This document shows, piece by piece, positions 11,709 through 19,144 of a stretch of DNA of 64,000 nucleotides (positions are counted from its first letter, which is position 1; every line of letters starts with the position of its first letter). The stretch spans positions 62,001-126,000 of the forward strand of contig NZ_JAUSBX010000090.1 of the NCBI RefSeq assembly GCF_030651835.1. Direction: 5' to 3'. The notes under the pieces are model-generated. The model was not told where the DNA came from. It worked only from the letters and a program-made list of their open reading frames with translations, and made no database searches. Source of the DNA: Methylicorpusculum sp. Its GTDB lineage: Bacteria > Pseudomonadota > Gammaproteobacteria > Methylococcales > Methylomonadaceae. Position numbers and translations under genes: made by a program.

Positions 11709-11770
11709 TCATCGATAAAAAATCGGTGCCAGATCATTTGAAAAACCTTCTTTTTAAGATCCTGAAATAA

Positions 11771-11788
11771 ACGGCATAAAAAATGCTG
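11771..11788 (+). promoter_or_regulatory. Candidate sigma-54 (-24/-12) promoter for the PEP-CTERM genes
   Basis: The sequence CGGCATAAAAAATGCT carries GG (11773-11774) and GC (11785-11786) separated by exactly ten bases, the invariant sigma-54 spacing, with GGCAT and TGCT matching the conserved arms. It would start transcription about 30 bases before the ATG at 11830. The predicted leader overlaps a small inverted repeat TAGGGA-N5-TCCCTA (11791-11807). Confidence 0.5.
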
Positions 11789-11829
11789 GATAGGGATTAA
11801 CTCCCTACCCACTAAAAGAAGGTTGACGA

Positions 11830-12549
11830 ATGAAATACGCGCACTACTTTAAAATACTGGTACCGGTCATCGCCTTGGCGGTAATACAAACAAGCACTGC
11901 CGAGGCCGCGCTCATCATCGATAATTTTACTGATCGCCAACAGGTCAAAGACGATTTAACCACGGCCGGAACCACCAGCAACTCAATGCTTTTGAGTGGA
12001 TCGGCATCCAGCCTGAGCGGAGCCCAAAGAACCTTCAGCGCCACATCAAATGGAATACCCAATTCTGAAAACGAGGGAGCAAAGCGCTCTATCAATACTC
12101 ACATCAGCGCTGAAGATGGATTCCTATCTTTTTCCAACGCTGAAAAATCAAACGGTACCGCATCAATTCTTTACGACAACTTCGGAATCGTTGACTTTAC
12201 TGCCTATGCTGATGCCTTTCTGATTGAAATTCTTACGATTGATCTAAATGCTGAATTAGAGTTGATCATTAACAATAACTCATTTTCGGGTCCACAATTA
12301 TTTAATGCTATTGGCAGTTTTTATATTGACTTCAGCAGCTTCAGTAACCCTTCGGAGCTGGCATCTGTACAAAATTTTGCCTTAACTGTTAAAGGCGTCC
12401 AGGCACTGGATCTCGACTTCAAATTTTCTGCCTTGAACAGAGCCGGTTCAGCATCAACTGCCGCAGTACCTGAACCCTCTTTGTATGCCTTACTAGCGAT
12501 AGGCTTACTGGTATTTGGGGCACTTAATCGCAAACAGATCCAATTTTAA
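11830..12549 (+). CDS. PEP-CTERM sorting-signal protein
   Basis: A 239-aa exported protein with a signal peptide (residues 1-26, VIALAVIQTSTAEAA). It ends in a canonical PEP-CTERM tail: VPEPS, then a hydrophobic helix (LYALLAIGLLVFGAL), then basic NRKQ. Such tails are recognised by an exosortase and processed at the outer face, generally for export in biofilm or EPS settings. The body (LIIDNFTDRQQVKDD, then GAQRTFSA) is beta-rich and resembles the next gene, so the two are tandem paralogues. Ribosome site GAAGG precedes the ATG. No exosortase gene lies in this window. Confidence 0.9.
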   Translation: MKYAHYFKILVPVIALAVIQTSTAEAALIIDNFTDRQQVKDDLTTAGTTSNSMLLSGSASSLSGAQRTFSATSNGIPNSENEGAKRSINTHISAEDGFLSFSNAEKSNGTASILYDNFGIVDFTAYADAFLIEILTIDLNAELELIINNNSFSGPQLFNAIGSFYIDFSSFSNPSELASVQNFALTVKGVQALDLDFKFSALNRAGSASTAAVPEPSLYALLAIGLLVFGALNRKQIQF

Positions 12550-12594
12550 TTGCCATTCATCATCAGCCTAAATTTATACCCGAGATTTAATCTT

Positions 12595-13266
12595 ATGAAC
12601 TCACTAAAAATTAGCAAAATCGCGACCTTACTGTCATTTTCCTTTGGCTTGGCATTTTCTTCATTCAGCCAGGCAAACTCTCTGGTTATCGACAATTTCT
12701 CGGATTACCAATATGTCTATGACCTGGGGGGCGACAATATCGCTACAACAGAGGGCCCGCTTGCTATTGCTGGAACCGGTTTGACCGGAGCAACCCGAAC
12801 CCTGATCGCACACGCCACAGGCAGCAATTTTCATGAAACGGCTATCGAAACCGATAACTCCTTATCCATTTCCAACACCTCACAATCAGCCGGGAATGCA
12901 TCGGTAATCTGGAACTTCAACCTGACTGACTTTACGCTGCATGGAAACGCCATCATGCTTCAAGTCTTGGCAATCGATATTCAGTCAGGCGTCTTTGTAC
13001 AAATGATTGCCAACGGCTCATCTTCATCCAATCAAATAGCGATTAACGGGGCGGGCGATCTCTATGTCAACTTCAGCGACTTTGATAATGCCTCTGTTTT
13101 CCAAGGACTCAACCAATTCCAGCTGAATTTTAAAGGGCCGCAAAGCTGGGACGCCGAATTTAAAGTATTGACTGCAACCACGCCAGTTCCTTTGCCTCCT
13201 GCTTTTGCGTTGATGAGCCTTGCCCTGTTTGGCATCGGTTCATTTCGTAAATATCAACATAGCTAA
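12595..13266 (+). CDS. PEP-CTERM-like protein (VPLPP variant), paralogue of the upstream gene
   Basis: About 223 aa. Signal peptide MNSLKISKIATLLSFSFGLAF, then LVIDNFSDYQYVYDLGG, GATRTLIA and NFNLTDFTLHGNAIMLQVLAIDI, which parallel the upstream protein along its length. The tail reads VPLPPAFALMSLALFGIGSFRK, the known VPLP variant of the exosortase signal. I chose the ATG at 12595 because it opens the signal peptide directly; the in-frame TTG 15 codons earlier gives a poor N-terminus. It follows the first paralogue by 45 bases and is probably co-transcribed. Confidence 0.88.
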   Translation: MNSLKISKIATLLSFSFGLAFSSFSQANSLVIDNFSDYQYVYDLGGDNIATTEGPLAIAGTGLTGATRTLIAHATGSNFHETAIETDNSLSISNTSQSAGNASVIWNFNLTDFTLHGNAIMLQVLAIDIQSGVFVQMIANGSSSSNQIAINGAGDLYVNFSDFDNASVFQGLNQFQLNFKGPQSWDAEFKVLTATTPVPLPPAFALMSLALFGIGSFRKYQHS

Positions 13267-13739
13267 GCAAACCGGATTAACACCACTGACACTTTTGGCA
13301 TTTAGATGCCATAAGTGTCAGTGCCCTTGTCATTTTTGACAGCTCCCCCAGCAACTCTCAATTTGAAGAGAAAAAAGGGATGGGGGAAGCTTTTTGAGGA
13401 TGTCGGCAGCAAGGGATGCTGCTGTCAAGCCCCCATGGAAGGGTTTACGGCGTTCCTCAAAAGGCTTTTACCAGCCCAAAATGATGCCGAAAAGATTAAA
13501 CTGAGAATTGCTGCAGCTCCCCCGCCTCACTGAATTACCTTTCGATTGATATAATAATGCTCTGATTCACCAACCCTCGCTGACCAAAAGCTACTGACAA
13601 TTTTTCATTGATCTTCTGGGTAAATTCAATAATTATTATTCAATTTCAATGTGATACTATGTCCCGCACAATTACGGCGCGGCATTTTTCTCCAATTAAA
13701 ACGCTGTTTACGTTCACAATAACAATAATAAATTGAACG
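13267..13739. other. Non-coding gap holding MITE copy 1
   Basis: Apart from the MITE-like element, the gap has an imperfect hairpin just after the PEP-CTERM genes (13291-13322, where GACACTTTTGGCAT faces ATGCCATAAGTGTC), a plausible transcription terminator without a clear U-tract. The last 200 bases are AT-rich and probably contain the promoter of the gene at 13740; no boxes were convincing. Confidence 0.5.
13340..13522 (+). repeat. MITE-like element, copy 1, with 9-bp target duplication
   Basis: The element proper is 13349-13513 (165 bp). It has terminal inverted repeats CAGCAACTCTCA (left) and TGAGAATTGCTG (right), extending inward as ATTTGA/TTAAAC. Inner arms (GGGAAGCTTTTTGAGG against CCTCAAAAGGCTTTTACC) make it a long imperfect hairpin. 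It is flanked by a perfect 9-bp direct repeat CAGCTCCCC (13340-13348 and 13514-13522). Two further full copies lie at 25392 and 42379. No transposase is encoded. Confidence 0.88.
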
Positions 13740-16558: not shown

Positions 16559-19144
16559 ATGAAAGCCAAAACACTGACCTTATTTATTATCTCGATACTG
16601 CTTATTATCAATCTGAGTATCTGGAGCTATGTCAATAACCCGTTAAAAATACCGTCGTGGAATAAAACGATGATGGGGGTGACATTCAGCCCGATGCGCC
16701 GGGACTCTGATCCCATGAACAATCGTTACCCTTCCTTGGAACAAATTGAGGAAGATGTCAGCTTACTCGCCAACAAAGTCTATGCGATAAGAACATACAG
16801 CTCCCTCGACGGCATGGAACATGTGCCTGAATTCGCTTTAAAAAATAAGCTGAATGTCACTATGGGCGCCTGGATCGATACTAATCTCGAAAAAAACCGC
16901 CGGGAAATTGAGAGCCTGATTAACCTCAGCAATGAAAATTCCCCGACCATTGTCCGTTTGCTGGTGGGCAATGAGGTTCTTCTAAGAAACGATATCCCTG
17001 TCGAACAGTTAATAGACTATATTCGCGAAGTCAAGAAACGCACCTGGCGCCCGGTCAGTACCTCAGAAACCTGGGACCGTTGGATAGCCCATCCGGAACT
17101 GGCAAACGAAGTCGACTATATCGCGGTGCATATTCTGCCTTACTGGGAAGGCATTTCTGTTGAGGCAGCAGTGGATTATATTTTCTTCCGCTACAACGCG
17201 ATGAAAGAGGCTTTCCCGAACAAACCGATAGTAATCACGGAAGTGGGTTGGCCTTCAGATGGTCAAGCGTTCAAACACGCCACACCCTCCTTGACCAATC
17301 AGGCCAAATTTCTGAGACAGTTCCTGAATAGGGCCTCAAAAGAAAAAGTCAATTATTACGTGATCGAAGCATTCGACCAGCCCTGGAAAATTGCACGAGA
17401 AGGCTCTTCCGGCGCTTATTGGGGCATCTACAATGCCGATAGAAAGCCCAAGTTCCCGATGGTCGGTGATGTACTGGCAATGCCTCAATGGCAGGACTGG
17501 GCTACTGGTGCGGCCATATTCAGCTTCATCCTGATGGGACTGTTTTTATTCAGCCGCCGCCAGCTTAAATTACCGGGGCTGTTATTTTTCGGCATCATCG
17601 CCAATATCGCCGCTTCTGTTCTGATTTGGTCGGCATCGATTGCAGCCCAGCAATATCAAACGACCTTCTCTATCGTATTCTGGTTGATCCTTCTACTGAT
17701 GCAGGCGTTAGCTATTTTGATCCTGCTGACTGAAAGCCTTGAAATAGCCGAGGTTATCTGGCATAGAAAAGGTTCAAGAACATTTCAGCCGCTAAAACCG
17801 GAAAGTAATTTCGTCTTTCCGAAAGTATCGATACATTTACCTATCCACAACGAACCGCCAGAAATGGTCAGAGAGACGCTGGAAGCGCTCGCAAAGATTG
17901 ATTATCCCGAATACGAAGTACTGGTTCTGGACAATAACACCCGAGATCCGGCAGTTTGGCAGCCTGTGCGAGACGATTGTGAACGGCTGGGGGCAAAGTT
18001 CCGGTTTTTTCACCTTGAAAACTGGCCCGGGTATAAAGCCGGCGCTATCAACTATGGGTTGGATCAGACCGCTGATGACGCAGAAATCATTGCGGTTATC
18101 GATAGCGATTACATCATTTCACCCGATTGGCTGAAATCGATGGTGCCTTATTTTGAAAACGACACTGTCGGCTTTGTTCAATCGCCGCAGGATTACCGCG
18201 ACCTACACGAAAACCTGTTTAAGCAGGTTTGTTACTGGGAATATGCCGGCTTTTTCAATATCGGCATGGTACAGCGTAATGAGTACAACGCTATCATTCA
18301 ACACGGCACGATGACATTGATTCGAAAATCGGCTCTGGTTGAGACCGGGCGCTGGAGTGAATGGTGTATCTGCGAAGACAGCGAACTGGGCTTGCGTCTT
18401 TATGAGGCCGGTTATGACTCCGTCTACTGCAAAGAATCGTTTGGCCGCGGTGTCATGCCGGATACCTTTTCCGGCTATATGACACAACGTTTCCGCTGGG
18501 TATATGGCGCCATGATGATCATCAAACATCATTGGCGGGAATTTCTGCCCAGTAAAAAATCATCCTTAACAACCGCCCAACGATACTACTTTATTGCCGG
18601 TTGGTTGCCGTGGTTTTCGGATGCATTGGCGCTTTTGTTGACTATCGCCAGTCTGGTGATGACCGCCTTGCTGGTATCCGACCCGTTACACAGCGAATTA
18701 CCGGTCAATGCGCTGCTGCTACCGACGATTGGCTTGTTCGGATTTAAAATCATCCGAACGCTTTGGTTGTATAAAGCCCGGGTTAACTGTTCAATCTTGC
18801 AATCATTCGGCGCGGCACTTTCCGGATTATCGCTGACCCACACCGTGGCAAAAGGCACGATACAGGGCTTGTTTACTTCCGGGAAGCCGTTTATGCGCAC
18901 GCCCAAACTTGAAAAGCAAGGCCCATTTATTGCCGGTTTGGCCACGATCTGGCAAGAATTACTGCTGCTGTCCTTACTGATTACCGCCATTCTGTCGATG
19001 CACTCATTGGAGCATTTCGACAATTTGAGCGGAAAACTCTGGATTGCAGTGCTGTCGGTCCAATCGGTACCTTACATCGCATCACTGCTAATCTTGCTCA
19101 TGAGTATTGCGCCTAATTACTTGCCTTCGAGAAAAAAATCGTAA
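16559..19144 (+). CDS. Bifunctional GH17 glucanase/transglycosylase - GT2 beta-glucan synthase
   Basis: An 861-aa fusion. An N-terminal anchor (residues 8-24) precedes a GH17 domain (~38-310) with both catalytic glutamates in view: E139 in VGNEVLL and E228 in ITEVGWPSDG. Four or so membrane helices follow (~315-400), then a GT2 cellulose-synthase-like domain (VSIHLPIHNEPPEMV, LDNNT, VIDSDY, CEDSELGLRL, QRFRWVYG) and C-terminal helices. The GT2 part resembles NdvB-type synthases of cyclic beta-1,3/1,6-glucans; the GH17 part would branch or cyclise the product. The neighbouring OpgC-type gene supports a periplasmic or exported glucan. Confidence 0.9.
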   Translation: MKAKTLTLFIISILLIINLSIWSYVNNPLKIPSWNKTMMGVTFSPMRRDSDPMNNRYPSLEQIEEDVSLLANKVYAIRTYSSLDGMEHVPEFALKNKLNVTMGAWIDTNLEKNRREIESLINLSNENSPTIVRLLVGNEVLLRNDIPVEQLIDYIREVKKRTWRPVSTSETWDRWIAHPELANEVDYIAVHILPYWEGISVEAAVDYIFFRYNAMKEAFPNKPIVITEVGWPSDGQAFKHATPSLTNQAKFLRQFLNRASKEKVNYYVIEAFDQPWKIAREGSSGAYWGIYNADRKPKFPMVGDVLAMPQWQDWATGAAIFSFILMGLFLFSRRQLKLPGLLFFGIIANIAASVLIWSASIAAQQYQTTFSIVFWLILLLMQALAILILLTESLEIAEVIWHRKGSRTFQPLKPESNFVFPKVSIHLPIHNEPPEMVRETLEALAKIDYPEYEVLVLDNNTRDPAVWQPVRDDCERLGAKFRFFHLENWPGYKAGAINYGLDQTADDAEIIAVIDSDYIISPDWLKSMVPYFENDTVGFVQSPQDYRDLHENLFKQVCYWEYAGFFNIGMVQRNEYNAIIQHGTMTLIRKSALVETGRWSEWCICEDSELGLRLYEAGYDSVYCKESFGRGVMPDTFSGYMTQRFRWVYGAMMIIKHHWREFLPSKKSSLTTAQRYYFIAGWLPWFSDALALLLTIASLVMTALLVSDPLHSELPVNALLLPTIGLFGFKIIRTLWLYKARVNCSILQSFGAALSGLSLTHTVAKGTIQGLFTSGKPFMRTPKLEKQGPFIAGLATIWQELLLLSLLITAILSMHSLEHFDNLSGKLWIAVLSVQSVPYIASLLILLMSIAPNYLPSRKKS

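Follow-up and report, generated by a model that had tools for sequence, protein, structure and literature searches.

The closest described relatives of the locus considered here are (i) the PrsK/PrsR/sigma-54 system, (ii) the pepA gene of Aquincola tertiaricarbonis, and (iii) the XrtD/VPLPA-CTERM system (TIGR04152 and TIGR03370). In the first, as set out by Haft et al. (2006; PMC1569441), PEP-CTERM genes of proteobacterial genomes encoding PrsK, PrsR and a PrsT-like protein lie behind a -24/-12 motif, namely motif 2, found on average 71 nt and at minimum 23 nt before the gene, with motif 1, i.e., 17 nt ending in TTTACA, 32–92 nt further upstream, and more than 65% of the PEP-CTERM genes stand alone. 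In the second, according to the published account (PMC9850573), the PEP-CTERM promoter depends on RpoN1 and its transcription start has been mapped, the gene being a single one beside prsT with a role in floc formation.

The window, i.e., the whole 64-kb stretch of Methylicorpusculum sp. DNA analysed here, contains two adjacent paralogous genes preceded by a -24/-12 site, which are best read, with a probability of roughly 80%, as a two-gene sigma-54 (RpoN) operon for exopolysaccharide-matrix proteins with PrsR as the most likely activator. As such, the locus is a further example of the system described in 2006 and nothing new in kind; what it adds is modest, namely a conserved tandem of VPEP and VP[LV]P[PA] tails and the lack of the PrsR box in the window's lineage. 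Like the genes of Haft et al. (2006; PMC1569441), the pair follows a -24/-12 motif, its genome, likewise proteobacterial, encodes PrsK, PrsR and a PrsT-like protein, and the motif-to-start distance of 42 nt falls inside their range, but motif 1 was not found in the window and the unit holds two paralogues instead of a lone gene. With pepA (PMC9850573), it shares a PEP-CTERM gene with upstream GG/GC elements but not the single-gene arrangement; against the PepA family, gene 1 reaches 24.6 for a cut-off of 80 and gene 2 is unlisted. With the XrtD system it has in common that its genome encodes XrtD and many VPxPA-tailed proteins, whereas the VPLPP tail of gene 2 lacks the AVW-L-G-SGL core and is unlisted by TIGR03370.

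The gene pair, its probable transcription unit and the predicted fold

Gene 1 (11830–12549, + strand) encodes a PEP-CTERM protein of 239 aa, predicted to be exported and to have a fold resembling carbohydrate-binding modules; its tail, VPEPSLYALLAIGLLVFGALNRKQIQF, runs from VPEPS to RKQIQF in the ORF translation; it passes TIGR02595 (20.2 bits, cut-off 16) and falls narrowly short of Pfam PF07589 (20.4 bits, cut-off 20.7). Its probable ribosome-binding site, AAGAAGG, is read at 11816–11822 (+ strand), the AAGG part being identical in an alignment of three sister genomes. Gene 2 (12595–13266, + strand) encodes a paralogue of 223 aa with the tail VPLPPAFALMSLALFGIGSFRKYQHS, running from VPLPP to RKYQHS; the mechanical ORF list starts it at a TTG at 12550, within the intergenic gap, but a start at the ATG at 12595 is more likely. 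Aligned over 215 columns, the products of genes 1 and 2 share 32% identity (E 1e-27), which bears out the tandem PEP-CTERM paralogues claimed by an earlier, sequence-only reading of this DNA, with the precision that the PEP-type tail of gene 2 has a three-part layout of PEP motif, hydrophobic helix and basic end recognisable by eye only: TIGR02595 leaves it unlisted, PF07589 gives 13.0 bits for a cut-off of 20.7, and no curated sorting model is reached.

Genes 1 and 2 look like one transcription unit closed by a hairpin. The gap between them measures 45 nt in the window, 41 nt in sister genome G002 and in Methylomonas SURF-1 (in the latter by chosen start) and 17 nt in Methylomonas koyamae (G012), and a terminator scan found no terminator-like site on the + strand of this gap in the window. 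Upstream of gene 2 no sigma-54 site was found in any of the five genomes carrying the pair (best score 7.3; window 0.5), and a sigma-70-like site inside gene 1 (12269–12298), from which gene 2 might in principle be transcribed, is no more than chance would give (3 such sites in the region for 3.6 expected). Downstream of gene 2, fold prediction places a hairpin at 13284–13323 (+ strand), the probable end of the unit; the 65-nt stretch holding it folds at -28.5 kcal/mol, a stability reached by none of 200 shuffles, and a strong hairpin lies 3' of gene 2 in all five pair genomes, the shuffle test applying to the window alone. The U-run does not follow this hairpin immediately and the terminator scan leaves it unlisted, so that its role as a terminator is one we infer. 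Further downstream, a gene at 16559–19144 encodes a GH17 glycoside hydrolase domain fused to a GT2 glycosyltransferase, possibly a beta-glucan synthase.

The predicted model, built with nine sequences (mean pLDDT 75.4), shows a beta-sandwich between the signal helix and a C-terminal helix. The best structural matches are the carbohydrate-binding modules CBM11, CBM29 and CBM30 and the N-terminal domains of GH50 agarases (Foldseek E-values near 1e-4; VIA-align Z of about 9.3–9.8 over 129–139 residues), together with a complex I assembly factor, which at Z 9.9 ranks first by that measure; Z values of 9.3–9.9 are slightly above the typical best of 7–8 quoted for the tool. Searching by sequence against solved structures returned only weak fimbrial subunit matches (best E 0.0014), and a plasmid search gave no match. 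The CBM and GH50 matches have an identity of about 6–12% and Foldseek TM-scores of at most 0.5, on a medium-confidence model, and function is not derivable from this fold likeness; by analogy with the modelled sandwich, the proteins of the pair may bind glycan.

The -24/-12 site and its conservation

A sigma-54-type core promoter, CGGCATAAAAAATGCT, lies at 11772–11787 (+ strand). As the sequence-only reading had stated, and as can be read directly, GG (11773–11774) and GC (11785–11786) are separated by exactly ten bases, and the A of the gene 1 ATG (11830) follows 44 bases after the C at 11786. Taken alone, this site is middling to weak evidence of a promoter. It has 3 mismatches to TGGCAC-N5-TTGCW, and sites with at most that many number 267 in the 64-kb window for 318 expected from shuffles; it lacks the T of TGGCA and is, jointly with that of G002, the weakest of eight homologous sites. 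With a sigma-54 matrix not derived from these genomes, it scores 11.3. In its own genome, 10 of the 351 background upstream regions score as high, as do 6 of 96 control upstream regions of four other genomes and 6 of 500 shuffled versions of the sequence upstream of gene 1. The background comparison is imperfectly matched, background genes being the longest ATG or GTG ORFs and PEP genes having hand-picked starts, and the 351 regions may include the gene of locus L064 (in L085) and the window's gene 2. These figures speak for the reading that the GG-N10-GC match is due to chance and a sigma-70 promoter drives the genes, which is tenable on the window by itself; against it, a simple scan found no sigma-70-like site on the + strand between 11600 and 11830, and -24/-12 sites occur at the homologous loci of all eight genomes, six of them stronger than the window's, which makes chance very improbable. 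The chance reading was accordingly set aside once homologues were compared, and since the window site alone is weak, it is this comparison that carries the case.

Homologues were found in seven of the 41 genomes searched (the window's own included) and in one extra genome, SURF-1, making eight genomes from five lineages, and in every one a -24/-12 site lies upstream of the pair or of the single homologue. The sites read CGGCATAAAAAATGCT in the window and G002 (score 11.3), TGGCATAGAAAATGCT in G001 (13.3), TGGCCTGCTATTTGCT in G026 (14.4), TGGCACAGGGCGTGCT in M. koyamae and TGGCACAAGGCGTGCT in SURF-1 (both 15.3), TGGCATCATCATTGCA in G004 (15.5), and TGGCATACGATTTGCT in G010 (16.0). In the seven genomes other than SURF-1, between 0 and 6 of 500 shuffles of the respective upstream region reached the site's score, and 13.3 was reached by only 1 of the 96 control regions (from G001, G010, G012 and G026). 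The distance from site to start is 41–81 nt in seven genomes and 155 nt in G004. Alignment of the three sister genomes, i.e., window, G001 and G002, was informative and that of seven distant loci was not. Together with a single RpoN encoded in the genome (PF04552, 234.2 bits), the recurrence of the site at eight of eight loci indicates that the sigma-54 promoter proposed from the window is very probably correct.

The sequence-only reading had also suggested a motif search before other PEP-CTERM genes, and this showed an enrichment: among PEP/VPxPA genes of the same genome, 6 of 27 score at least 13 against 7 of 351 in the background (Fisher 9e-5), gene 1 ranking seventh among those scored. The 27 comprise 26 of 30 distinct PEP/VPxPA loci plus gene 2, loci L007, L008, L018 and L068 having been dropped for a missing start or a cut gene. 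This genome contains 15 matches to the pattern TGGCAYN5TTGCW and 2 to its reversed form, used as a control, and two of the 15 matches precede scored VPxPA genes (L052 and L065).

Under the preferred reading, RNA polymerase carrying sigma-54 (RpoN) would wait at 11772–11787 to be remodelled by an enhancer-binding activator, for which PrsR, driven by PrsK, is the most likely candidate; transcription would then begin around 11798 and cover both genes, ending at the 13284–13323 hairpin. Both proteins would be exported by their signal peptides, held by the C-terminal PEP-type tail and cleaved by an exosortase, so as to end up, once released, in or on the polysaccharide matrix; there, the carbohydrate-binding-like beta-sandwich might bind glycan.

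PrsR and the upstream region

The genome encodes PrsK (688.6 bits, cut-off 300) and PrsR (700.0 bits, cut-off 502.6) by adjacent genes beside an XrtA-type exopolysaccharide locus, as well as a PrsT-like protein slightly under its curated cut-off (288.3 bits against 312.2). Moreover, all seven family-bearing genomes fall among the 20 of 41 with PrsR over cut-off (probability 0.003, kinship ignored). Control of the pair by PrsK and PrsR, as put forward in the sequence-only reading, stands as far as the regulators are encoded, but the canonical box is missing: 32–92 nt upstream of the window site the best score is -8.6, which 306 of the 351 background regions match or exceed, and widening the search to 100 nt yielded only TGTCAGGCTTTCTGATC (1.9, matched or exceeded by 39 of 351), which falls within the upstream ORF. 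At the homologous promoters the canonical box is found in one of eight, namely in G026, 64 nt upstream, with a matrix trained on nine boxes, none of them from these eight promoters. PrsR control of the gene pair is, by analogy with the known system, plausible.

The region upstream of the site differs among close relatives. At about 11712–11713, the alignment (no strand assigned) reveals a junction at which some 75 nt of G001 and G002 are absent from the window, by loss here or gain there. In G002, this segment includes the palindrome TGTCTGGATACCAGACA, and its counterpart in G001 contains no clear PrsR box. The palindromic pattern, TGTC-N9-GACA, is found 65 nt upstream of the sigma-54 site in G002 and 63 nt upstream of it in G004, and in none of the 351 background regions, the pattern having been chosen after being seen in these two genomes; by the independent PrsR-box matrix the two palindromes are unremarkable (110 and 62 of the 351 background regions score at least as high), so that their support comes from the post hoc test only. 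The homologues accordingly share a conserved core promoter, with an enhancer that is less certain.

Across the 41 genomes, TTTACA lies 50–80 nt before a sigma-54 site in 50 matches from 28 genomes, against 3 in the reversed control. Twenty-seven of these composites were examined, i.e., 30 pattern loci without L106, L107 and L115, which a position filter removed (L096 entered by a looser filter); nine of them begin with TGTC or CGTC, near TGTCA-N6-TTTACA, and five of these nine lead into a VPEP-tailed protein. In the window's own genome, box and sigma-54 site are combined once, before another PEP-CTERM gene (L003, C66:34713).

It is conceivable, at somewhat less than even odds, that the sigma-54 promoter is real and that another activator, or PrsR without its usual box, controls the pair. 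The window has no PrsR box and is about 75 nt short of its sister genomes, and its genome encodes at least 31 TIGR02915-related regulators. Besides, of the six other sigma-54-type PEP/VPxPA genes scoring at least 13, only L003 has the canonical box, which is itself part of the matrix training set; the box of L010 is weak (9.0; 3 of 351 background regions as good), and L052 and L056 share the stretch GTCATATCACA in place of one. Against such a reading stand the canonical box of G026, the palindromes of G002 and G004, and the restriction of the family, among the 41 genomes, to those with PrsR over cut-off (SURF-1 lying outside the search). PrsR is retained here as the most likely activator.

Three further observations concern the activators of this genome. 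Firstly, GTCATATCACA lies about 65–95 nt before the sigma-54 sites of the VPxPA genes at L052 (G000:C159) and L056 (G000:C130), which may point to a different sigma-54 activator serving some of the exosortase cargo. Secondly, the VPVPA-tailed gene at L062 (G000:C112:51242, - strand) is preceded by a sigma-54-like site, TGGCTTAAATATTGCG, with a PrsR-like box, TGTCAGGATTTTTTGCG, 64 nt further upstream, from which PrsR may serve an XrtD-type tail too; its box score of 12.3 equals the top background score, and as L062 lies in background locus L071, that top score is probably L062 itself. Thirdly, a TTGA about 25 or 34 nt before TGGCA, perhaps an IHF-like site, is present in the window (11738–11741) and at the boxed loci L090, L099, L112 and L113, i.e., in 4 of 9 boxed promoters (0.8 expected) and 3 of 18 unboxed ones (1.5 expected), the null being a simple shuffle and the rows being related.

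Exosortases and the two tails

The earlier suggestion that the paralogues, differing in sorting motif, might be handled by different exosortases has fared unevenly. Two such enzymes are indeed encoded, namely XrtD (TIGR04152, 588.3 bits, cut-off 400) and an XrtA-like EpsH of 301 aa (TIGR02602, 129.5 against 105.55), but the window's second tail is nearer to the VPEP class than to the 22 XrtD-type tails of this genome. That gene 1 is sorted by the XrtA-like enzyme and gene 2 by XrtD is doubtful, and the evidence differs between genera. In all five pair genomes, from two genera, a VPEP tail comes first and a VP[LV]P[PA] tail second, and each genome has two exosortases over the TIGR02602 cut-off, one being XrtD where typed; the two Methylomonas genomes each have one typed as XrtA (327.3 for a cut-off of 208) and one typed as XrtD. 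G026 has one exosortase, XrtA-like, and one VPEP gene, and in G010, where no exosortase was found, the tail is gone by eye. The correspondence is loosened by a third, shorter TIGR04178 match in M. koyamae (G012), by G004, in which the one VPAPP gene found is accompanied by three exosortase matches, two above and one below the EpsH cut-off, and by the XrtA-like enzyme of the window's genus, which stays under the XrtA cut-off (143.8 against 208).

The tails themselves were compared with a classifier built from 22 XrtD-type tails and only 7 VPEP tails. The three first-gene tails scored fall on the VPEP side (-11.6 to -21.0). The second-gene tails of Methylomonas lean to XrtD (+6.4 and +10.9), like three held-out atypical VPxPA tails (5.9–8.7), whereas those of the window's genus lean to VPEP (-9.0, -1.9 and -1.3) and the 22 XrtD-type tails score at least 18.6 leave-one-out. 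TIGR03370 leaves gene 2 unlisted, both in the own-genome search (E 1) and by hmmscan (E 10). Judged by these sequences, the idea of two exosortases is weaker in the window than in Methylomonas, and it is open.

Two side observations belong here. In the window's own genome (G000), XrtD-type tails, VPxPxAVW-L-G-SGL-GL, far outnumber VPEP tails, the 22 in the classifier being taken from among them. The G010 homologue (L034, reverse strand, C45:24760–25341; L049, 9746–10426, - strand) keeps its site TGGCATACGATTTGCT and has no PEP-type tail by eye; neither TIGR04178 nor TIGR02602 finds an exosortase in this genome, which nevertheless encodes a PrsR of 708.7 bits.

In a tree, the gene 1 and gene 2 copies form two groups, with one change in 97% of bootstrap trees and support of 69/90, a pattern that fits a single ancient duplication, with the reservation that long branches are joined. 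A broader account, less probable still than the division of labour between enzymes that it includes, would have an ancient tandem duplication, seen in five genomes of two genera, give one sigma-54 operon two carbohydrate-binding-like products with different surface addresses, one copy retaining a VPEP tail for XrtA and the other having shifted to a VP[LV]P[PA] tail for XrtD, the enhancer box being lost or replaced in the window's lineage while the core promoter was kept. If true, one signal would load two exosortase pathways at once.

To our knowledge, exosortase tail recognition has little direct test behind it. The pair offers a natural matched comparison in this respect, its genes being seemingly co-expressed and their products related in body but unlike in tail, in genomes that encode two exosortases. 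As regards regulation, it extends the PrsR/sigma-54 rule of 2006, in that the core promoter is conserved across five lineages and the activator box is not.
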